64,000 nucleotides of DNA from an uncultured Ectothiorhodospiraceae bacterium (GCA_937141935.1 CAKZQS010000001.1:1-64000); one strand, 5' to 3'. Shown: positions 592 through 13,634, numbered from the stretch's first letter. Translations and numbers: made by a program. Notes: generated by a model not told the origin, from the letters alone.

Positions 592-1986
592 CTAGTCGCG
601 CGGGCCGAGCATGTCCTCGGGCCGCACCAGCGCATCGAAGCGCTCGCCGTCGAGCAGGCCGGTTTCGATGGCCGCCTCGCGCAGCGTCAGGCCCTGCTCG
701 TGCGCATGCTTGGCGATGCGCGCGGCGGCGTCGTAGCCGATGTGCGGGTTCAGCGCGGTGACCAGCATCAGCGACTGCTGCAGCAGGGCCGCGATGCGCG
801 CCTCGTCGGCCTCGATGCCCTCGACGCAGCGCTCGCGGAAGGAGTCGGCCGCGTCGGCCAGCAGCTGCATCGATTCGAGCAGGTTGTGGATCAGTACCGG
901 CTTGTACACGTTCAGCTCGAACTGGCCCTGGGCGCCGGCGAAGGCGATGGCCGCGTCGTTACCCAGCACCTGGGCGCAGACCATCGTCAGCGCCTCGCAC
1001 TGGGTGGGGTTGACCTTGCCCGGCATGATCGAGCTGCCTGGCTCGTTGGCCGGCAGGCGCAGCTCCCCGATCCCGCAGCGCGGGCCGGAGGCCAGCCAGC
1101 GCAGGTCGTTGGCGATCTTGTGCAACGCCGTCGCCAGGGTCTTGCAGGCGCCGCTGGCCGCAACGATGGCCTCGTGCCCGGCCAGGGCGGCGAACTTGTT
1201 GGGCGCGCTGTGGAAGTCCTCGCCGCAGAGCCCGCTGAGCTCGGCGGCCACGGCCTCGGCGAAGCCGGGCGCCGCGTTCAGCCCGGTGCCGACCGCGGTG
1301 CCCCCTTGGGCCAGTGCGCGCAGCTCCGGCAGGCAGGCCTCCAGCGCGCGCAGGCCGATGTCGAGCTGCGCGGCATAGCCGGAGAACTCCTGGCCCAGCG
1401 TCAGCGGCGTCGCGTCCTGCAGGTGGGTGCGACCGATCTTGACCAGCTGGCTATGCCGCTGGGCCTGTACCTCCAGCGCCTCGCGCAGCCGCTGCAGCGC
1501 GGGCCGCAGCGTTTGCGTGGCGGTCAGCAGCGCGGCCACATGCATCGCGGTGGGGAAGACATCGTTCGAGGACTGGCCGCGGTTCACGTGGTCGTTGGGG
1601 TGCACCGGTTCCTTGGCGCCCAGCGCGGCGCCGAGGATTTCGCAGGCGCGGTTGGCGATGACCTCGTTGGCATTCATGTTGGTCTGCGTGCCGCTGCCGG
1701 TCTGCCAGATCACCAGCGGGAATTCCTGATCCAGCGCGCCGGCCGCGACTTCGCCGGCCGCCTGGTCGATGGCCTCGGCCAGCGCGGCCGGCAGCGTGCC
1801 GAGGCGGGCATTGGCCCGGGCGCAGGCCTGTTTGACCCGGCCCAGCGCGTGCACGAAGCCCGGCGCGAAGCGCTGGCCGCCAATGGGGAAGTTCTGCAGC
1901 GAGCGCTGGGTTTGCGCGCCCCAGTAGTGCTCGGCCGGGACCTCGACCGGGCCCAGCGAATCGGTTTCGGTGCGGGTGGCGGACAT
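592..1986 (-). CDS. fumC: Fumarate hydratase class II
   Basis: FumC hydrates fumarate to L-malate in the citric acid cycle; class II enzymes are iron-free cytosolic homotetramers. The 464-residue product matches the family length. It carries the N-terminal substrate region ([15 protein letters not shown]), the [18 protein letters not shown] block, [10 protein letters not shown], and the signature loop [13 protein letters not shown] with the catalytic serine. I start it at the ATG at 1986 ([12 protein letters not shown]), where family similarity begins; an ATG at 1992 and a longer arginine-rich extension to 2052 are possible. No clear ribosome site is visible. The stop is 6 bases from the mtnA remnant on the other strand. 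The upstream side holds a 24-bp tandem repeat. Confidence 0.95.
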
Positions 1987-2663: not shown

Positions 2664-4313
2664 TTAGCGGCGCGCGGTGGCATCCGCGGCGCGCAGGTAA
2701 ACCGGGTTGCTGATCAGGGTGCGGCTGCGGGCGTCGCGGGTCTCAAAACGCCAGATCGTGCCCAGCGGGCCTTCGTCAAAGGGCACGCGAAAGATCGGCT
2801 GCTCGTATACGAAGGGGTCCGTAGCCACGGGCAGCGTCAACACCGGCAGCGCGTCGCGGAAGATCGTCAGCAACTGCCCCTGCGCGCCCTCCAGCGTGAT
2901 CTGCAGCATGGCCTGGTCGGCGGCGACGCTGCTGCCAAAGCTGCCCTCCTCGCCGGCGGCGGTGCTGAGCCGCAGTTCGGCGCGCGGCGAATCCGCCACG
3001 CCGCGTACCTGGATGTAGGCCCGCCCGGCACGCAGGGCCTCGCGCAGCGCCGGGCGCGATAGCTCCTGCGCGTACACCTGCGTGGCCGAGCTGCCATAGC
3101 CCTTGCGCGCTCGCTCTTCCGGCGCGTCGACGCCCTTGGAATCCGAGGCCGACACGGCCGTGATGCGAAAGCCCTGGCGCAGCTTGTCCAGCCACCAGTC
3201 AATGGCGGTGGCGATGAAGGGGTTTTCGGTCTCCCCGGGCAGCGGCAGGCCGATGTCGCCGCCGGTGGCAATCGGCGGCCCGCTCACCACCTCGACCAGG
3301 TCGACGGCGGCGTAATCGACAAAGGCGTCGAGCTCCCAGGCGCAGCCGCGGCAGAGGTTGGAAAAGACCGGCGGCGGGAAGATCGTGGGGTGGTTGACCT
3401 GGAACAGGGCGCCCGCGGCCCGCGCCTGCTGCTGGATCAGGCCCATCGTGATGTCGCCATAGCCGTGCCGGTACTCCGGCGTGCCCGGCTGCTCGCCATG
3501 CACGTTGGCATGACCGAAATAGGTGATGACCTCGCGCCCGGGCCACAGCAGCAGATCGGGGTGCGCGGCCTGCACCTGGGCCAACTCGGCGTGGTGCCGG
3601 GTGGTGACATAGTCGGTCAGCATCAGCACATCGAGCTGCGCCTCGCGGGCTTGGGCAATCACGCCCTCCCAGTCGGGGGCCTCGGGGTTGGAGTGATAGC
3701 CGTGCATGTGAAAGTCACCCGCATACCAGCCCGGCTGTGCGCGCGCCACGCGCGTGGGGTCCAGCGCGCCCACATCGCGTGAGCCCTCGCTGCCGGCCGC
3801 CGCGAGGCAGCGCAGCTCCACCTCGACATCGGCGCCGGCCTCGGAGGCCGCGGCCAGGCCCAGTTCCACATGCCACAGGCCGGGCTGGATCGGCCCCGGC
3901 TCAAAGCCGCGGTCCGCGGCGCTGGCGCTGACAAAGACCGGTGGCCGCTCCTGGTCCAGGCGGCCCTGGCGCGAGCCCCCCCAGCCGCGAAAACCGTCGA
4001 CCAGCCCGCGCGCATCCCACAGCCCCAGGTCGACCGTGGTTGCCGTCAGCGGGTTGCCGGGCAGCGAGCTGCGATCAGTCCAGCGGTAGCCGACCTCGAC
4101 CCGGCCCGTGCCGGGCGTCACGACGAAGGGCAGGTAGACATAGCTGCGCCGCTGCTCGGGCGCAAAGTCGTAGCGCAGGACAACGGGCTCGGCGCCACAG
4201 CGGGGCGCTTCGGCGGCGTCGGGCGCGGGCGGCAGCGTGGCGGTGCTGACCGGGTCGCCGCCGCAGCCCGCCCCCAGCAGCGCCAGCAGGACAGGCCAGG
4301 CCCTAACGTCCAA
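2664..4313 (-). CDS. Exported PHP-domain metallohydrolase, CehA/McbA-like lipoprotein
   Basis: A predicted 549-residue exported protein. PHP/CehA-type metal-binding motifs occur in order: FHMHGYHSNP (about residue 200), LTDY (about 231), GREVITYFGHANVHG (about 256-270), FQVNHP (about 303) and SASDSKG (about 388). An N-terminal beta-rich domain precedes them. CehA/McbA proteins are zinc hydrolases of phosphoesters or carbamates; the substrate here is unknown. I start at TTG 4313, preceded by GGAG at 7 bases, giving signal peptide MDVRAWPVLLALLGAGC. The lipobox is imperfect (Gly at -3). This start overlaps the upstream barrel gene by 11 bases, implying coupled translation. No ATG fits the signal peptide. 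Confidence 0.75.
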   Translation of the reverse strand: MDVRAWPVLLALLGAGCGGDPVSTATLPPAPDAAEAPRCGAEPVVLRYDFAPEQRRSYVYLPFVVTPGTGRVEVGYRWTDRSSLPGNPLTATTVDLGLWDARGLVDGFRGWGGSRQGRLDQERPPVFVSASAADRGFEPGPIQPGLWHVELGLAAASEAGADVEVELRCLAAAGSEGSRDVGALDPTRVARAQPGWYAGDFHMHGYHSNPEAPDWEGVIAQAREAQLDVLMLTDYVTTRHHAELAQVQAAHPDLLLWPGREVITYFGHANVHGEQPGTPEYRHGYGDITMGLIQQQARAAGALFQVNHPTIFPPPVFSNLCRGCAWELDAFVDYAAVDLVEVVSGPPIATGGDIGLPLPGETENPFIATAIDWWLDKLRQGFRITAVSASDSKGVDAPEERARKGYGSSATQVYAQELSRPALREALRAGRAYIQVRGVADSPRAELRLSTAAGEEGSFGSSVAADQAMLQITLEGAQGQLLTIFRDALPVLTLPVATDPFVYEQPIFRVPFDEGPLGTIWRFETRDARSRTLISNPVYLRAADATARR

Positions 4314-5485: not shown

Positions 5486-6067
5486 GTGAGTTCCGGACAA
5501 CTGATGATCCTTTCCGCGCCCTCGGGCGCCGGCAAGACCAGCCTGGCCCATGCGCTGGCCGAGCGCCTGCGCGAGCGCGGCCAACGCGTGGCCTTCTCGG
5601 TCAGCTATACGACGCGCGCACCGCGGCGCGGCGAGGAAGACGGGCGGGATTACCATTTTGTGGACGATGCGACCTTTTCGGCCATGGTGCAAGAGCAGGC
5701 CTTTCTGGAGCATGCGGGCGTCTACGAGCGGCGCTACGGCACCGGCCGCGCCGCGACCGAGGCGGCCCTGCAAAGCCATGATCTGGTGATCCTGGACATC
5801 GACTGGCAGGGCGCGCAGCAGGTCCGGAAGCACTGGCCGCAGGTGTTGTCGGTGTTTATCCGCCCGCCGTCGCTGCAGGAGCTGGAGCGCCGGCTGCGCA
5901 CGCGCGGCCAGGACGACGAGCAGACCGTTGCCGCGCGGATGCAGCAGGCCGAGGCCGAACTCAGCCACGCCGACGAATTCGACCAGCAGATCGTCAATGA
6001 CGACTTCGCGCGCGCGCTGGATGCGCTGCTGGCGCTGGTGGACAGCCGGGCGACGGCGGCGCGCTAA
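5486..6067 (+). CDS. gmk: Guanylate kinase
   Basis: Gmk phosphorylates GMP to GDP with ATP. The P-loop SAPSGAGKTS is at residues 10-19 and the GMP-binding region SYTTRAPRRGEEDGRDYHFV follows, as in the family. Length is 193 residues from GTG 5486 (MSSGQLMILSAPSG), which matches other Gmk starts; ATG 5432 in the same frame would add 18 unusual residues. gmk usually follows yicC in gammaproteobacteria; here yicC is about 22 kb away and rpoZ/spoT are absent. Convergent with gdhA, 27 bases apart. Confidence 0.95.
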   Translation: MSSGQLMILSAPSGAGKTSLAHALAERLRERGQRVAFSVSYTTRAPRRGEEDGRDYHFVDDATFSAMVQEQAFLEHAGVYERRYGTGRAATEAALQSHDLVILDIDWQGAQQVRKHWPQVLSVFIRPPSLQELERRLRTRGQDDEQTVAARMQQAEAELSHADEFDQQIVNDDFARALDALLALVDSRATAAR

Positions 6068-6094
6068 TTCGGTCCGCGCCGGCCCGGCGGGCGC

Positions 6095-7447
6095 TCAGAT
6101 CACGCCGTAGGCGATCATCGCGTCGGCCACCTTGACGAAGCCGGCCACGTTGGAGCCCTTCAGGTAATCCACGTAGCCGTCTTCGGTCTCGCCGTACTGG
6201 ATGCACTTGCGGTGGATCTCACCCATGATGCTGCGCAGGCGCTGGTTCAGCTCGTCGCGCGACCAGGACAGGCGCATGCTGTTCTGCGTCATCTCCAGGC
6301 CGGAGACGGCCACGCCGCCGGCGTTTGCCGCCTTGGAGGGTGCGAACATCAGCCGCGCTTCCTGGAAGACGTCGATGGCGTCCGCGGTCGAGGGCATGTT
6401 GGCGCCTTCGGACACACCGAGGCAGCCGTTGTTGACCAGCGTGCGGGCGTCCTCGCCGCTGATCTCGTTCTGCGTGGCACAGGGGAAGGCCAGCTCGCCC
6501 TCGATGCCCCAGGGGCGCTTGCCCTCGTAGTACTCGCAGTCGAAGTGCTCGGCGTACTCGGAGATCCGCCCGCGGCGCACCTCCTTGAGATCCTTGACCC
6601 ACTCCAGCTTCTCGGCGTCGATGCCGGCCGGGTCGTAGATGCTGCCGCCCGAATCGGACAGCGAGACCACCTTGCCGCCCAGCGCGATGATCTTCTCGGC
6701 GGTGTACTGGGCCACGTTGCCCGAGCCGGAGACCAGGCAGCGCTTGCCCTCCAGGTCCATGCCGCGGTGCTTGAGCATGTCCTCCATGAAGTACACGCAG
6801 CCGTAGCCGGTGGCCTCGACGCGAATCTCCGAGCCGCCGAAGGCCAGGCCCTTGCCGGTGAGCACGCCGACAAATTCGTTGGAGATGCGCTTGTACTGGC
6901 CGAACATGTAGCTGACTTCGCGCGCGCCCACGCCGATGTCGCCGGCCGGCACATCGGTAAAGGGCCCGATATGGCGGAAGAGCTCGCTCATGAAGGCCTG
7001 GCAAAAGCGCATGATCTCGCGGTCGCTCTTGCCCTTCGGGTTGAAGTCGGCGCCGCCCTTGCCGCCGCCCATCGGCAGCCCGGTCAGCGAGTTCTTGAAG
7101 GTCTGCTCGAAGGCCAGAAACTTCAGGATCGACTGGGTGACGTTGTGGTGGAAGCGGATGCCGCCCTTGTAGGGGCCGATTGCGTTGTTGTGCTGCACCC
7201 GATAGCCGCGCTGGGTGCGGATGTTGCCCTCGTCGTCCTCCCAGCAGACGCGGAAGGACACGATGCGGTCCGGCTCCGTCAGCCGTTCGAGAATTTGCTT
7301 CTCTTCGTACTCGGGGTTGCGCTGGATGAAGGGAATGATGTGCTGGGCGACTTCGTGCACCGCCTGGTGGAACTCGGTTTCCCCCGGGTTGCGCCGTTCC
7401 AGGCCGGCCATGAATTCGGCCAGGCGGGACTGATCGGACTGGCTCAT
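6095..7447 (-). CDS. gdhA: NADP-type glutamate dehydrogenase
   Basis: The 450-residue protein matches the hexameric GdhA class that makes glutamate from 2-oxoglutarate and ammonia. Visible landmarks are YKGGIRFH, the catalytic-lysine loop GLPMGGGKGGADFNPKGKS, PAGDIGVGAREV, the GGSEIRVEATGYG hinge and the nucleotide-binding turn VSGSGNVAQYTAEK. NADP specificity is inferred from the subfamily. The ATG at 7447 has a GGGGGTCC-type purine-poor leader, so the ribosome site is weak. A 118-base divergent spacer separates it from a MerR regulator, whose involvement is untested. Confidence 0.95.
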   Translation of the reverse strand: MSQSDQSRLAEFMAGLERRNPGETEFHQAVHEVAQHIIPFIQRNPEYEEKQILERLTEPDRIVSFRVCWEDDEGNIRTQRGYRVQHNNAIGPYKGGIRFHHNVTQSILKFLAFEQTFKNSLTGLPMGGGKGGADFNPKGKSDREIMRFCQAFMSELFRHIGPFTDVPAGDIGVGAREVSYMFGQYKRISNEFVGVLTGKGLAFGGSEIRVEATGYGCVYFMEDMLKHRGMDLEGKRCLVSGSGNVAQYTAEKIIALGGKVVSLSDSGGSIYDPAGIDAEKLEWVKDLKEVRRGRISEYAEHFDCEYYEGKRPWGIEGELAFPCATQNEISGEDARTLVNNGCLGVSEGANMPSTADAIDVFQEARLMFAPSKAANAGGVAVSGLEMTQNSMRLSWSRDELNQRLRSIMGEIHRKCIQYGETEDGYVDYLKGSNVAGFVKVADAMIAYGVI

Positions 7448-7565: not shown

Positions 7566-8387
7566 ATGACACAGGCATCGGGGAGCGCGCGCGAACCCGC
7601 CGGCGACCGGCGGCGCGAATACACCGTGGACGAGCTGGCGCGCACGGCCGGCACCACGGTGCGCAACGTGCGCGCCTACCAGGACCGCGGCCTGCTGCCG
7701 GCGCCGGAGATCCGCGGCCGCACCGGCTACTACAACCAGAGCCACCTGGCGCGGCTGCGCATCATCGCCGGCATGCTGGGGCGCGGCTACACGCTGAACT
7801 CGATCGGCGAGCTGCTGGAGGCCTGGCAGGAGGGGCGTGACCTCACCGAGCTGCTGGGGCTGGAGGCGGCCGTGACCGAGCCCTTCGTCGAGGAGCTGCC
7901 GGAAACCACCACGCTGGCGCAGCTGCGCGAGGACTTCGGCGGCCGCTTCCCGGCCAGCACGCTGAGCAAGGCGGTGGCGCTGGACATCGTGCGCATGCGC
8001 GGCAAGCAGCTGGAGATCCCCAGCCCGCGGCTGATGGCGGCCGGCCGGCAGCTCGCCGCCTACGGCATCCCGCTGGAGGAGATGCTGGATCTGATCTCGG
8101 CGCTGCGCGACAACGTCGAGCGCGTGGCCGATGGCATCGTCGAACTGGTGGCCGAGCACATCATCGACCCGCGCTGGTCGGGCGAGCTGCCGCCCACGGC
8201 GGAAATCTCGCAACTGGCCGAGGTTGTCTGGAATTTGCGCCCGCTGGTCGAGAAGGCGGTGCTGCCGGAAGTCTCGCGGGCGATGCACCGCGCGCTGGAA
8301 AACCAGCTCGGCGACCGCCTGTCGATGGTAATGGACCACCTGCCGCGCAAGGCGGCCGGGATCAGCGACCGCTCAGACGGCGATTGA
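7566..8387 (+). CDS. MerR-family transcriptional regulator
   Basis: A 273-residue protein whose N-terminus is a MerR winged helix: YTVDELARTAGTTVRNVRAYQDRGLLPAPEIRGRTGYYNQSHLARL (about residues 17-62), then a coiled dimerisation helix. The roughly 190-residue C-terminal part has no cysteine cluster for metal sensing and no effector domain I recognise, so the signal is unknown. ATG 7566 is chosen because in-frame upstream codons encode no conserved sequence. Its last 26 bases overlap the 3' end of the convergent SDR gene. Confidence 0.85.
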   Translation: MTQASGSAREPAGDRRREYTVDELARTAGTTVRNVRAYQDRGLLPAPEIRGRTGYYNQSHLARLRIIAGMLGRGYTLNSIGELLEAWQEGRDLTELLGLEAAVTEPFVEELPETTTLAQLREDFGGRFPASTLSKAVALDIVRMRGKQLEIPSPRLMAAGRQLAAYGIPLEEMLDLISALRDNVERVADGIVELVAEHIIDPRWSGELPPTAEISQLAEVVWNLRPLVEKAVLPEVSRAMHRALENQLGDRLSMVMDHLPRKAAGISDRSDGD

Positions 8388-9126
8388 TCGCCACGGCCAG
8401 TGTATCCGGCGTCAGCCGCAGCAGCGCGCGGAAGGCGTGCGTGGCGCCGCCCACCAGGTAGTGCAGCCGCGGCCGCTTCTCGGTGGCCGCGCGCATGACC
8501 ACCTTGGCCACATCGGCCGGCTCGATCTTGACCCCCAGCGACTTGGTGGCCTCGACCTGGGTCATGCCGGCCACCATCGCGGTGCGCACGAACAGCGGCA
8601 TCACGTCGCAGACGTGGATGCCGGCGCCGGACCATTCCAGGTTCAGCCCCTCGGTCAGGCCGCGCACGCCGAACTTGCTGGCGGCATAGCTGACCAGGAT
8701 GGGCTGGCCGAACAGCGCCGAGGCCGAGCTCATGTTGATGACGCGGCTGCCGGCGGCGAGGTGCGGCCAGGCGCAATGGCAACCGTTGAGCACGCCGCGC
8801 AGGTTGACGTCGAATATCGCCTGCTGGCGCGCCAGCGGCAGTTCGGCGAAGGGCCCGTCGGCCAGGATGCCGGCGTTGTTCAGCAGCACGTCCAGGCGGC
8901 CCCCGGCGGCGGCCACGAAGTCGGCCAGCGCCGCCTGCCAGGCTTGGGCATCGGTGACATCCAGCCCGCCGGCGCGGGCCCGGCCTGCGCCCTGCTCGGC
9001 GGCCCAGGCCTCGACCGCCTGCGCGTCGATGTCGTAGGCGCCGACGAACCAGCCGGCGGCGGCAAAGGCCTCGGCGCAGGCGCGGCCAATGCCCTGGGCG
9101 GCGCCGGTGATGAAAATGCTGCGCAT
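8362..9126 (-). CDS. Short-chain dehydrogenase/reductase (SDR)
   Basis: A classical SDR of 254 residues. The Rossmann nucleotide loop TGAAQGIGRA is at residues 7-16, NNAG at about 86-89, and the catalytic YAASK near residue 147 with serine upstream in NMSSASAL. Such enzymes oxidise or reduce alcohol/ketone groups with NAD(P)(H); the substrate cannot be told from sequence. It lies 15 bases after the MscS stop and is probably cotranscribed with it. Its 3' end overlaps the MerR gene by 26 bases on the opposite strand. Confidence 0.9.
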   Translation of the reverse strand: MRSIFITGAAQGIGRACAEAFAAAGWFVGAYDIDAQAVEAWAAEQGAGRARAGGLDVTDAQAWQAALADFVAAAGGRLDVLLNNAGILADGPFAELPLARQQAIFDVNLRGVLNGCHCAWPHLAAGSRVINMSSASALFGQPILVSYAASKFGVRGLTEGLNLEWSGAGIHVCDVMPLFVRTAMVAGMTQVEATKSLGVKIEPADVAKVVMRAATEKRPRLHYLVGGATHAFRALLRLTPDTLAVAINRRLSGR

Positions 9127-9141
9127 GGGTCTCCTGCGGGC

Positions 9142-10164
9142 TTAGCCTTCGGCGGCCTGGCGGATGGACACCGGGACCGGCTCGGCGAAGGTGTGAGTGC
9201 GGTAGGGGAAGGGGATCTCGATGCCGGCGGCGTCCAGCGCGGACTTGATGGCCAGCACCACCTCGCCACGTGAGCGGCGGTGGTCCAGCGGCGTGGGGTC
9301 GGTCCAGTAAGTGACTTCGATGTCGATGCTGCTGGCGCCGAAGCCGTGGGCGAAGACCTGCAGCGGGTGGCCATCGTCGACCGTGGAGCAGCCCTGGACC
9401 GCTTTTTCGATGACTTCGATGGCCGCGCCGGCGTCTTCGCCGTAGGCCACGCCGGTCATCACGGTCAGCCGCCGCTTGGGCTTGTCGGTGAGCACCTCGA
9501 CCGGGCTCTTGAAGATCGTCGCATTGGGGATCAGCACCAGCTCGTCGCTGACCTGACGCAGGCGGGTCATGCGCACGGTGACGTCCTCGACCCGGCCGAC
9601 GATGCCCTCGACCTCGATCCAGTCGTCGCGCTCGAAGGGAAAGCGCCACAGGATCAGCATGCCGGCGAAGAAGTTCTCGAAGATGTCGCGAAAGGCAAAG
9701 CCCACGGCGACGGAGAGCAGGCCCAGGCCGCCCAGGGCGCCGGCCGGCGTCAGCCCCGGGAACATCACCATGGCCGAGAGCATGGCGCCCGCCGTCCAGA
9801 TCGCCACTACGCCCAGGCGCTCGATCAGCTCCTTGAGCGACTCGCGCATGTGGCTGCGCGCCGTCAGGCGGCGGTTGAAGCGCTGGTACAGCGCCGAGAC
9901 CGCCCAGGTCAGCAGCAGCACGACGATGCCAAAGAGCAGATAGGGCAGGTGGGCGACGAAGGCGGCCCAGGTCTCGATCAGCGATTCGCGCATGATGCGC
10001 AGCACGCCGTCGACCTCGGTGGCGGCCTCGGCGGGCAACTCGGAGGCCTCGGACGGCGCATCGCCGGCGGCCGGCTCCGTGTTGTCGGCCTGTGCCAGGG
10101 CCTGCCCCGACAGGGCCAGGCCGATCCATGCGGCAACGCCCGCCAGTGCTGAGTTCGTGCGCAT
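9142..10164 (-). CDS. Small-conductance mechanosensitive channel, MscS family
   Basis: A 340-residue inner-membrane channel that releases solutes under hypo-osmotic stress. A signal-like N-terminus (to about residue 25) precedes an acidic periplasmic stretch and membrane helices around 70-90 and 110-155. The pore-lining TM3 is glycine/alanine-rich (AGALGGLGLLSVAVGFAFRDIFENFFAG), followed by the MscS beta domain (DDWIEVEGIVGRVEDVTVRMTRLR, LIPNATIFKSPV) and the C-terminal alpha-beta domain. Upstream of an SDR gene with a 15-base gap. Confidence 0.92.
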   Translation of the reverse strand: MRTNSALAGVAAWIGLALSGQALAQADNTEPAAGDAPSEASELPAEAATEVDGVLRIMRESLIETWAAFVAHLPYLLFGIVVLLLTWAVSALYQRFNRRLTARSHMRESLKELIERLGVVAIWTAGAMLSAMVMFPGLTPAGALGGLGLLSVAVGFAFRDIFENFFAGMLILWRFPFERDDWIEVEGIVGRVEDVTVRMTRLRQVSDELVLIPNATIFKSPVEVLTDKPKRRLTVMTGVAYGEDAGAAIEVIEKAVQGCSTVDDGHPLQVFAHGFGASSIDIEVTYWTDPTPLDHRRSRGEVVLAIKSALDAAGIEIPFPYRTHTFAEPVPVSIRQAAEG

Positions 10165-10291: not shown

Positions 10292-11539
10292 TCAGTCGGC
10301 GCTGACGAAGTCGATGTTCAGCGGCACCAGTTCGAGCGGCAGAAAACGGGTGCTCAGCGTGTCGCCATCAACGCGCAGCAGGCCGGGCTGCGCCGCGTTC
10401 AGGCCCAGCCACAGCGCGCCGCGCGGGCCGCCGTTCGCCGCCGTGATCTCGGTGTTCTGGCTCTGCGCGGGCAGGCCCTCGGCGGAGGCCGTGCCGGCCT
10501 GCGCATCCACGCGGTACAGCGAGTTGCTGCCCCCCGCGTTGGGGTCGCCGGCGACCAGCCACAGCGTGCCGTCCGCGGTCTGCGCCATATCGGCGAACTG
10601 GCCATAGGGCGCGTTTTGCGGGGTGCCGTCGTCGAGCACCGTCGTGACCCCGTGGTCGGCCAGATCGACCCGCAGCAGCGCGCCGTCGTAGCGGGGCGTG
10701 AAGGCGGTGAAGTCGTCGTTGAAGTCGCGGCCGCCCACGGCCAGCACATACAGCGCATCGCCGCCCTCGGCCACGACGATTTCGCTGGCGTTGCGCGCGG
10801 GCAGTTCGATGCTGTTGACCCCGGGCGCATCCGGGTCCAGGTCGACCAGCGTGTCGCTGGCGATGTCGATGGCGACGAGCTGGCTGTCCTGCGTGGCATC
10901 GAAGAACTGCAGCCGCTGCAGCAGCACATAGGCGCGGCCGGCGGCCACGGTCGCCGCCGCCATTTCCGGCACGCCGTCGCCGTCGAAGGCCGACAGGTCG
11001 ATCTCGGCCTGCAGGAAGCCGCCCTCGCTTTGCGCCTGCGGGTTCACCACCCACAGGCTGCCGGCGCCGTAACGCAGCACATAGGCCTTGTCCGGTGCCA
11101 CCTCGACGATGTCATAAGGGTTGCTGCCCTCGTCGGGCTTGGCCGCATCCTGGGTCGAATAGGTGTATTGCGGCAGCTCTGGCGCGTCGGGCGAGAAGCG
11201 CGCGATGGTGTTGGCCGCGTTGCCGGCGAAGAGGCGCCCCACGCGGTAGAAGTGACCGCCGGCGGCGCGCACCGACAGGTCCGAACCGACCGGCGCCAGA
11301 TTCTGCTCAACGGCCAGCGTGTCCAGGTCCACCAGCGCATGCGCGCCGGAGGAGAAATCGGCGGCGCGGGTGGCCACGACGGCGTTGCCGGCGGTGGCGA
11401 TGGGCGTCGGCGTGGGCGCGGGGTCGGGTGCCTGCGTGGCGGCCCTGGGCAGCTCGCTGCAGGCCGCCAGCAGCAGGGCGGCCAGCAGGCCCGAGGCGTG
11501 GATGGGAAGGGGGGCCGAACGGCCGCGGGATGGGTACAT
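10292..11539 (-). CDS. Predicted beta-propeller lipoprotein of the B12 operon
   Basis: A 415-residue exported protein with lipobox LAAC (signal GLLAALLLAACSE), then a Pro/Thr linker. The rest shows recurring blade-like units with aromatic 'LW/YV' strands: KAYVLRYGAGSLWVVNPQ, GRAYVLLQRLQFFDAT, GDALYVLAVGG, DGTLWLVAGDP, GALWLGLNAAQPGLLRVDG. That pattern suggests a beta-propeller of about 6-7 blades (inference). It follows a BtuB-like receptor by 20 bases under one cobalamin riboswitch, so cobalamin capture at the cell surface is the likely role, comparable to the propeller lipoprotein BtuG that works with BtuB in Bacteroides. Homology to BtuG is not shown. ATG 11539 is the start that gives a signal peptide. 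Confidence 0.7.
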   Translation of the reverse strand: MYPSRGRSAPLPIHASGLLAALLLAACSELPRAATQAPDPAPTPTPIATAGNAVVATRAADFSSGAHALVDLDTLAVEQNLAPVGSDLSVRAAGGHFYRVGRLFAGNAANTIARFSPDAPELPQYTYSTQDAAKPDEGSNPYDIVEVAPDKAYVLRYGAGSLWVVNPQAQSEGGFLQAEIDLSAFDGDGVPEMAAATVAAGRAYVLLQRLQFFDATQDSQLVAIDIASDTLVDLDPDAPGVNSIELPARNASEIVVAEGGDALYVLAVGGRDFNDDFTAFTPRYDGALLRVDLADHGVTTVLDDGTPQNAPYGQFADMAQTADGTLWLVAGDPNAGGSNSLYRVDAQAGTASAEGLPAQSQNTEITAANGGPRGALWLGLNAAQPGLLRVDGDTLSTRFLPLELVPLNIDFVSAD

Positions 11540-11559
11540 GCGCTCTCCAGAAGGGCGTG

Positions 11560-13413
11560 TCAGGGATGGGCGTAGCTCAGGCCGAACCAGACCTGGCGGC
11601 CGGGTTCGGCAAAGCCGTTGAAACGGGCGTGGCGGTTGTCGCCAAGGTTGCGGCCCTCGGCGCGCAGCGCCCAGCGGCCCGCGCTCCAGCGCAGCAGCAG
11701 GTCGTGGCTGCGCAGCACCGGCGCCGGCAGCAGGTTGGGGCTGTCGTAATAGGCGCCGCTTTCGAAGGCGAAGGCGTAGCGCAGGGCCCAGGGGCCGCGC
11801 TGCCAATCGAGTTGCGCATGGGCCTGCCATTGCGGCCGACCGGGCAGGCGCCGGCCCGCATGTGCGCCATCGCCGCGGTCACGCGCCTGCAGCCAGTCCG
11901 CGCGCCAGCGCAGCGACAGCGCCGGGCCCAGCGCGTGCCGGTCGGCGAGGGACAGGCCCCAGACCTGGGCGCGACCGGCGTTGACGGCGCGGCCCAGCCC
12001 CTGCGCGTTGTACTGCGGCGTGATCGCATCGCGCAGCAGGCGCAGGTAAGCCGAGAACTGGGGCCCGCGGGCGCCCGCGTGGTTCAGCGCCACGCTCAGG
12101 GCCCGCTCGCTGTCCAGCTCCGGATTGCCGCGGAACAGACCCCGGTCGCCATAGCGTTCGAAGACGGTAGGCAGGCGTTCGCGGTACTGCGCCTGAGCCT
12201 GCCAGCCGCCCCAGGGCAGGGCCTGCGTGAGCCCCGCTGCCGGGGCGAGGCGCTGGCCGCCGCGGGCCGCATCGCCGCTCTCGCCCCAGAGCAGGACGCC
12301 GAGACTGGCGCCGCGGCGCGCGGGGCCCGCGGCCGGCGTGTGGCGCGACAATGAGCCCGGCGCGGGGGCCGACTCTGGTGCTGACTCGGGGGTCGACTCG
12401 GCAGCGGGCCACTGCCACTCGCGCGCCCATTCCGCCTCGTAGCGGCCGACCCGCTGCGCGGAGTTCGCGCGGCGCGCGTCTTCGCTGGTGACGGCGGTCA
12501 GGTCGACGCGCCAGAAGTCGGCCCCCGGGCGTTCGTCACGCTCCCAGCCCAGGCCCCAGGTGCGGCTGCGCCGGTCGCTGGGTGCCAGCACGAGATCGGC
12601 GCCGGCATCACGGAAGCGTTCGTCGAGCAGGCCCAGGCGCCATTGGCCGCCGGTTGCCGGCAGCGGCGCGGCCCACTGGGCCAGCCGCGTATCCAGCCGG
12701 GCGCCATTGTTGCGGCTGTTGCGGGGGTTGGGGATGTGTTCGCGCTGTACGCTGAGCAGCCCGAGCTGGCCCGGCTGGCGATAGAGCAGCGCGTACTGGC
12801 GCGTGGCGGCGTTCTGCCGTGGCTCCTCGGCGCGGCGCTCGGGGTCAGCGGGGTCGAAGGGCTTGAGGGGGTTGCGCAGCGGGAAGTCGTTTTGCGCCTG
12901 CTGCCCGTGCAGCGTGAGGCTGCCCGCACCCTTGCCGCCCCAGGTCAGCGGCTGGGCCCATGTCAGCGCCCGCAGGCCGTACTGTCCAGCCGTGGCGTGC
13001 AGCGCCCGCTCGGCCTTGCGCGCGCGAAGCAGCAGGTCGCCGCTGAGCCCGCGGTTGTGCTGGTAATCCACCTGGGCGCCGCCGAGCGCGGGCGCGGGCA
13101 GCAGCGACAGGTTCAGCGCCGCCCCGCCCGGTGTCAGCAGCGGCACCCCGTCGAGCAGCACGCGGGCCTGGCGCGCCGAGCCACCGCGCAAGCTGGCCTC
13201 GGCATAGGCGCCCAGGCCGCCGCCGCGGCGCAGCTGCACGCCGGGAAGTGCGAGCAGCAGTGCCGGCAGGTCGAGTGCGGCGGCGGGCAGGCGCAGCTCC
13301 GGGCTGCGGCCCTCGGTCGTCAGGGGGTCAAGCACCACCGGCGGCTCGGCCCGGGCGGTCAGTACCGCCAGCAACAGGCCCAGCGCCGCCGCGGCGCGGC
13401 TGCGTATATGCAT
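11560..13413 (-). CDS. btuB: TonB-dependent receptor, BtuB-like (cobalamin or cobamide uptake)
   Basis: A 617-residue outer-membrane receptor with signal peptide (to ARA, residue 22), a short N-terminus, a plug domain (LPGVQLRRGG, SLRGGSARQARVLLDGVPL) and a C-terminal barrel with NPELDSERALSV, the usual TonB-receptor C-terminal block. Substrate is assigned from the cobalamin riboswitch directly upstream, not from the receptor sequence. A Pro/Ser/Glu insert around residues 340-360 is encoded by a 12-bp repeat. The last residues are SYAHP rather than ending in Phe/Trp, which is atypical. Downstream and probably cotranscribed is the propeller lipoprotein. Confidence 0.85.
   Translation of the reverse strand: MHIRSRAAAALGLLLAVLTARAEPPVVLDPLTTEGRSPELRLPAAALDLPALLLALPGVQLRRGGGLGAYAEASLRGGSARQARVLLDGVPLLTPGGAALNLSLLPAPALGGAQVDYQHNRGLSGDLLLRARKAERALHATAGQYGLRALTWAQPLTWGGKGAGSLTLHGQQAQNDFPLRNPLKPFDPADPERRAEEPRQNAATRQYALLYRQPGQLGLLSVQREHIPNPRNSRNNGARLDTRLAQWAAPLPATGGQWRLGLLDERFRDAGADLVLAPSDRRSRTWGLGWERDERPGADFWRVDLTAVTSEDARRANSAQRVGRYEAEWAREWQWPAAESTPESAPESAPAPGSLSRHTPAAGPARRGASLGVLLWGESGDAARGGQRLAPAAGLTQALPWGGWQAQAQYRERLPTVFERYGDRGLFRGNPELDSERALSVALNHAGARGPQFSAYLRLLRDAITPQYNAQGLGRAVNAGRAQVWGLSLADRHALGPALSLRWRADWLQARDRGDGAHAGRRLPGRPQWQAHAQLDWQRGPWALRYAFAFESGAYYDSPNLLPAPVLRSHDLLLRWSAGRWALRAEGRNLGDNRHARFNGFAEPGRQVWFGLSYAHP
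12371..12406. repeat. Three 12-bp repeats inside btuB
   Basis: Units beginning GACTC at 12371, 12383 and 12395 encode repeated Pro-Glu/Ser-Ala residues in a predicted surface loop of the receptor. Multiples of three keep the frame, so copy number could vary without breaking the gene. Confidence 0.6.
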
Positions 13414-13416
13414 TGG

Positions 13417-13440
13417 GGGTATCGAGCCCTCCGCTCACCC
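13417..13440 (-). promoter_or_regulatory. Possible riboswitch expression-platform hairpin
   Basis: On the minus strand GGGT-GAGC and GCTC-GAT-ACCC pair around a GGAGG loop, just before the btuB ATG at 13413. The GGAGG is the only Shine-Dalgarno-like run near the start, at an unusually long 13-base spacing. The hairpin could be the ligand-controlled element. This is inferred from pairing only. Confidence 0.4.
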
Positions 13441-13453
13441 GGTGTGTCAGGAT

Positions 13454-13622
13454 CCAGGCCGGTCTCCGGACTTGGAGCGATGACCGTGCGACTGGCCTTC
13501 CCGGTCGTGCCCGACCAGTGGCGTATCAGTCGCCCGCGCTCCTTACCGTTGCGGGGGCAGTGCCGGATTTGCACCGGCTTCCCGTTTCACCCCGCCAGCG
13601 CGGGGCACCTTTCACGCCGGCA
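13454..13622 (-). promoter_or_regulatory. Cobalamin riboswitch
   Basis: On the minus strand the leader contains the canonical B12-box: GCCGGTGCAAATCCGGC followed by ACTGCCCCCGCAACGGTAA (13543-13578). Downstream come GCCACTGG, GGGAAGGC and AGTCCGGAGACCGGCC. The ends pair as P1 (GCCGG near 13618, CCGGCC near 13455). It would lower expression of the BtuB-like receptor and the lipoprotein when adenosylcobalamin or a related cobamide is abundant. The promoter must lie between about 13623 and 13714, next to the promoter of the divergent phosphatase gene. Confidence 0.95.
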
Positions 13623-13634
13623 AGCATAGCGCAG

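Follow-up and report, generated by a model that had tools for sequence, protein, structure and literature searches.

On the minus strand of the window (the whole 64,000-nucleotide stretch of DNA that was analysed), a cobalamin riboswitch leads a gene pair that combines a TonB-dependent receptor with a lipoprotein predicted to fold like BtuG. We consider it probable that this is a corrinoid-uptake operon under B12-riboswitch control, in which the lipoprotein would work with its receptor as BtuG works with BtuB in Bacteroides. The affinity of BtuG2 for cobalamin is very high, and the protein closes over the barrel of its transporter like the lid of a pedal bin (PMC6143338, PMC10404256). The 2018 BtuG paper reported no homologue outside the Bacteroidetes (PMC6143338), and lipoprotein-capped TonB transporters were described in 2023 as apparently exclusive to that phylum (PMC10404256). 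No report of a proteobacterial BtuG counterpart was found in the literature searched, a scope outside which preprints and most subscription papers fall, and the operon belongs to a real, apparently unreported BtuG-like system outside the Bacteroidota.

The operon runs from the riboswitch to the receptor gene and, after a gap of 20 bases, to the gene of the 415-aa lipoprotein (Table 1). The leader riboswitch named in the original prediction was confirmed over the complete RF00174 model with 116.6 bits (E 1.5e-28) against a gathering score of 31.5, and no other RF00174 match turned up in the 3.57-Mb draft genome. The predicted extent of the operon, 10292-13622, is only a few bases off, since the aptamer reaches 13628. 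No terminator-like site was found between the receptor and lipoprotein genes, and neither a terminator-like nor a sigma-70-like site was found inside the operon. The flanking genes, for an MscS-type channel and an inositol monophosphatase, have no link to B12.

Table 1. Features of the operon, with positions counted from the first nucleotide of the window.
Feature	Position	Strand	Basis
Cobalamin riboswitch aptamer, operon leader	13440..13628	-	RF00174, complete model 1-189, 116.6 bits, E 1.5e-28
BtuB-like TonB-dependent outer-membrane receptor gene, 617 aa, first gene of the operon	11560..13413	-	plug PF07715, TIGR01779, family profile, model match
Receptor plug-domain stretch, residues 46-109	13087..13278	-	Pfam PF07715, E 2.8e-5
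GGAG, ribosome-binding-site-like motif before the lipoprotein ATG	11545..11548	-	read from sequence
Lipoprotein gene, 415 aa, predicted BtuG-like propeller, stop codon included	10292..11539	-	ORF; homologues with the same neighbours
Lipobox LAAC (L24-A-A-C27), lipidated Cys27	11459..11470	-	sequence
Predicted seven-bladed beta-propeller domain, residues 49-415	10295..11395	-	AlphaFold2 model; PDB BtuG matches over 49-415

The two genes are found together in 13 of 61 relatives, and neither has a strong match in the remaining 48; a 14th lipoprotein match, in G049, is marginal (E 8.9e-4). The receptor profile used here, which was built from the paired copies, hits exactly these 13 genomes at E < 1e-200, and its matches in the others do not go beyond 2e-36. 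In each of the 12 other genomes, the receptor gene immediately precedes the lipoprotein gene and the riboswitch stands in front of the pair. A contig scan over the genomes of 84,980 species yielded 34 loci, which belong to Desulfobacterota and to Gammaproteobacteria, the latter from Solimonas, Nevskia, Panacagrimonas, Hahella, Alcanivorax, Granulosicoccaceae and Colwellia. The propeller gene adjoins a TonB-dependent receptor gene in 33 of these loci; in the remaining one, the contig breaks off within the locus. RF00174 was found in 21 of the 24 further scan loci that were not already counted and whose leader was readable and searched; no match was obtained in L050 or in L058 and L060, two Colwellia loci in which btuF/btuR nevertheless adjoin. 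Furthermore, an even draw of 369 gammaproteobacterial genomes across the class, which overlaps the contig scan in part, contained the propeller family in 23 genomes. The receptor gene was adjacent in 19 of 19 strong matches beyond the own genus, and the riboswitch was present in all 17 with a complete leader.

Two elements of the original prediction are thereby borne out: the operon layout of riboswitch, receptor and lipoprotein, which recurs in 12/12, 21/24 and 17/17 loci with a readable leader, and the place of the gene beside the receptor gene in relatives. The recurrence of this layout in almost all related loci whose leader could be read shows that it is real and far beyond chance. The propeller pairs obligately with the receptor. 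The distances of receptors and propellers also co-vary (Mantel r 0.81, 22 pairs), a correlation that is confounded by species phylogeny.

As predicted, the second gene encodes a lipobox protein, and its Cys27 is invariant in the 12-member alignment A1. A search of the lipoprotein against Pfam and NCBIfam gave no family above cut-off. The propeller fold that had been proposed for it is supported by a confident AlphaFold2 model made from a 12-sequence alignment (pLDDT 82, about 90 in the core, pTM 0.81), in whose strand list we assigned seven four-stranded blades by hand, the last being closed by strand 405-413 together with the N-terminal strands 50-84. The closest solved structures are those of BtuG. 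In a Foldseek search of the PDB, the 16 best matches of the model are all BtuG1/2/3 or 3dsm, with E 6e-14 and a TM to target of about 0.77 at the top. Likewise, the 11 best VIA matches all belong to this group (Z 30.2-31.8), the best with Z 31.8 over 309 residues and rmsd 2.8 Å, and every other propeller has Z <=28.1 (YVTN 28.1, the E. coli Pgl-like 1ri6 27.6).

The kinship with BtuG predicted from this model is at the level of the fold because sequence identity is only 13-16%. A likeness by sequence or profile did not appear: phmmer with the lipoprotein against the PDB, which holds BtuG1-3, returned no BtuG chain at E <= 1, and profiles of the lipoprotein family against the PDB returned none at E <= 5 and E <= 10. 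BtuG membership has been set at BlastP E < 1e-10 to BT1490, BT1954 or BT2095 (PMC6143338), and judged by its sequence the lipoprotein is not a BtuG. A propeller family that has been reported beside B12 loci is PF16819 (DUF5074; PMC13398666). The lipoprotein scores 15.2 bits with this model, below the gathering cut-off of 27.2; the best E-value among 37 scanned family members is 0.003, and the homologue in G204 reaches 25.6 bits.

Conserved positions of the family are concentrated in blades 2-3, which hold 23 of the 29 that lie inside blades. They show no preference for one propeller face (loop-class means 0.507 vs 0.515, p 0.59), and with the loop classes so alike we dropped face clustering as an argument. 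The net charge is negative in most family members and is -30 for the full lipoprotein here, which is weak evidence that fits an attraction of cationic corrinoids.

The receptor had been called BtuB-like, and in the broad sense this designation stands: it is a B12-controlled TonB-dependent transporter closest to B12 receptors. A stricter assignment to the TIGR01779 equivalog ('TonB-dependent vitamin B12 receptor') fails, the receptor scoring 45.3 bits (E 4.5e-12) against a cut-off of 599.7. The single receptor sequence is not decisive since other receptors of the same genome outscore it on TIGR01779. A family profile of 11 sequences (A3) against the PDB finds B. theta BtuB1, the partner of BtuG1, as its best match over the whole length (8blw_A, 1.1e-30), followed by 9gbc, a TonB-linked receptor that is annotated as the siderophore transporter XusA, and by E. 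coli BtuB (7e-27), whose best stretch is the plug. The predicted receptor model (pLDDT 77) likewise matches BtuB1 of the BtuB1-BtuG1 complex best in VIA (8blw_A, Z 34.4, 535 residues), with PqqU (Z 33.3) and E. coli BtuB (Z 32.9) as close runners-up; Foldseek places BtuB3 (8p98_A) first and PqqU second.

The original prediction left two options, a counterpart that extends the BtuG architecture or convergent evolution. The BtuG-like fold and the pairing with a receptor support a counterpart; membership of BtuG by sequence does not hold. In the convergent case, a different propeller family would have been recruited beside BtuB and would work like BtuG without shared descent. We regard this as a possible but rather doubtful origin. 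The lack of detectable sequence homology to BtuG is in line with it, as is the use of propellers as binding lipoproteins in other systems, of which XusB and BtuK1 are likewise among the fold matches. Against it speak the rank of the BtuG group, which is closer than all other PDB propellers (Z higher by about 2-3.7), and the receptor profile, which also matches the BtuG-partnered BtuB1 best. Taken together, these matches to BtuG and BtuB1 speak more for common descent than for convergence.

By analogy with Bacteroides, we infer corrinoid binding, a physical lid complex and a hand-over mechanism for this operon. When B12 is scarce, the riboswitch would permit the making of the BtuB-like transporter and of the outer-membrane propeller lipoprotein. 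The lipoprotein, which most likely serves the receptor as a lid or capture domain on the outer face, would bind corrinoids and pass them to the barrel, and TonB-driven import through the barrel would lead on to BtuF/BtuCD.

The inferred surface exposure has to be weighed against the usual placement of such proteins. Outer-membrane lipoproteins of Gammaproteobacteria mostly face the periplasm, and these bacteria lack the Bacteroidetes surface export signal, the LES being specific to Bacteroidetes. Accordingly, the lipoprotein might take part in corrinoid uptake from the periplasmic side, receiving B12 from the receptor and handing it to BtuF, which we think unlikely. The lipoprotein has no Bacteroidetes LES, which can be read in favour of a periplasmic position. 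A search for Slam (PF04575) gave no match, a result that carries no information since the control genomes were likewise without one. In several homologues an Asp follows the lipobox Cys, which we counted against surface export. The nearest fold, in contrast, is that of the surface lid BtuG, and in some family members a long linker of about 100 residues that is rich in Asp, Gly and Thr separates the Cys from the propeller. Moreover, the lipobox is absent from some Desulfobacterota members. Two of these, L046 and L050, have a C-terminal choice-of-anchor U domain instead, with CFI-box-CTERM in addition in L050, and these domain annotations suggest envelope or surface anchoring by another route.

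Besides the riboswitch, other B12 genes surround the pair in related loci. In Colwellia, genes for an ABC ATPase, a FecCD permease, BtuR and BtuF precede it. In Granulosicoccaceae and other gammaproteobacterial loci it is followed by a substrate-binding protein and a BtuC-type permease, and in one locus by CobU. CobQ and CobT are found in the Hahella locus, CobT in the Alcanivorax locus and CbiK in a Syntrophobacteraceae locus. In the locus L053 of a deltaproteobacterial MAG (5504-7350 (+), 7578-9972 (-)), the propeller gene stands by itself behind a cobalamin riboswitch of its own, and the receptor gene faces it from the opposite strand, with a separate riboswitch and beside corrin methylase genes. 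This arrangement links the propeller gene directly to B12 control, beyond the link through its operon. That the protein is a secreted propeller enzyme or a generic YVTN/SMP-30-like protein, for example a lactonase, placed in the operon by chance is very improbable, since its weak likeness to SGL/SMP-30 and two-component propellers is set against its co-occurrence and adjacency with the receptor and the B12 riboswitch in many families and two phyla, its own riboswitch in L053 and fold matches in which BtuG outranks all enzyme propellers. A lactonase/SMP-30 role was rejected on genomic context.

The host itself probably scavenges corrinoids, judging from its gene content, because its genome encodes the B12-dependent MetH and a search of it for cobI/cbiL gave no match above cut-off.

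The system shares with BtuG1/2/3-BtuB1/2/3 of Bacteroides thetaiotaomicron (8blw, 8bmx, 8p97, 8bmy, 3dsm; PMC6143338, PMC10404256) a seven-bladed propeller, predicted in our case, a lipobox, the adjoining BtuB receptor gene and a cobalamin riboswitch. It differs in its occurrence in Gammaproteobacteria and Desulfobacterota, in the identity of only about 14% and in the absence of an LES, and it is known from genes and models. E. coli BtuB-BtuFCD likewise has a riboswitch-controlled, TonB-dependent B12 receptor, and btuF, btuC and btuR occur in loci related to ours; E. coli, however, has no lipoprotein partner, and the receptor described here is divergent. The Bacteroides XusA-XusB system (9gbc, 9hqe) also combines a TonB receptor with a propeller lipoprotein, but its ligand is a siderophore and its fold match to our lipoprotein is weaker than that of BtuG (Z 24.0). 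Accessory B12-binding lipoproteins in riboswitch-regulated loci are further known as BtuH/BtuJ (DUF4465) and BtuK (PMC12751083, PMC13398666), binding being a prediction for the protein studied here. BtuJ/DUF4465 proteins differ in being beta-jellyrolls, and BtuK1 (9s6c) is again a weaker fold match than BtuG (Z 24.6). Proteins with DUF4465, a different B12-binding fold, are known in several phyla including Pseudomonadota.

By our surveys, about 6% of the sampled gammaproteobacterial species, and also Desulfobacterota, have a BtuG-like propeller that is paired and under riboswitch control. On balance we lean towards an anciently diverged BtuBG that is displayed on the surface without an LES in free-living Gammaproteobacteria and in Desulfobacterota, some of the latter using C-terminal sorting domains in place of the lipid anchor, so that lipoprotein-lidded B12 transporters would not be confined to the Bacteroidetes. 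If the lid role is confirmed, the reported exclusivity is contradicted and B12 capture of this kind is widened to free-living environmental bacteria. The genomes also offer non-gut organisms for testing lid-assisted uptake.

Some loci depart from the common arrangement. In G403, a strongly diverged pair of TonB receptor and propeller (L128, G403:C71) is a weak match; no cobalamin riboswitch was found with this pair, which was left out of the counts and is possibly a sister system for another ligand. In the Colwellia proteins of L058, L060 and L061, an additional domain of some 100 residues is inserted between the lipobox and the propeller; in L058 this domain weakly matches a tandem-95 repeat. 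L059 has two divergent cobalamin riboswitches, at 1212-1427 (-) and 3527-3758 (+), one of which leads the receptor-propeller pair while the other lies on the strand with a gene for a periplasmic binding protein.
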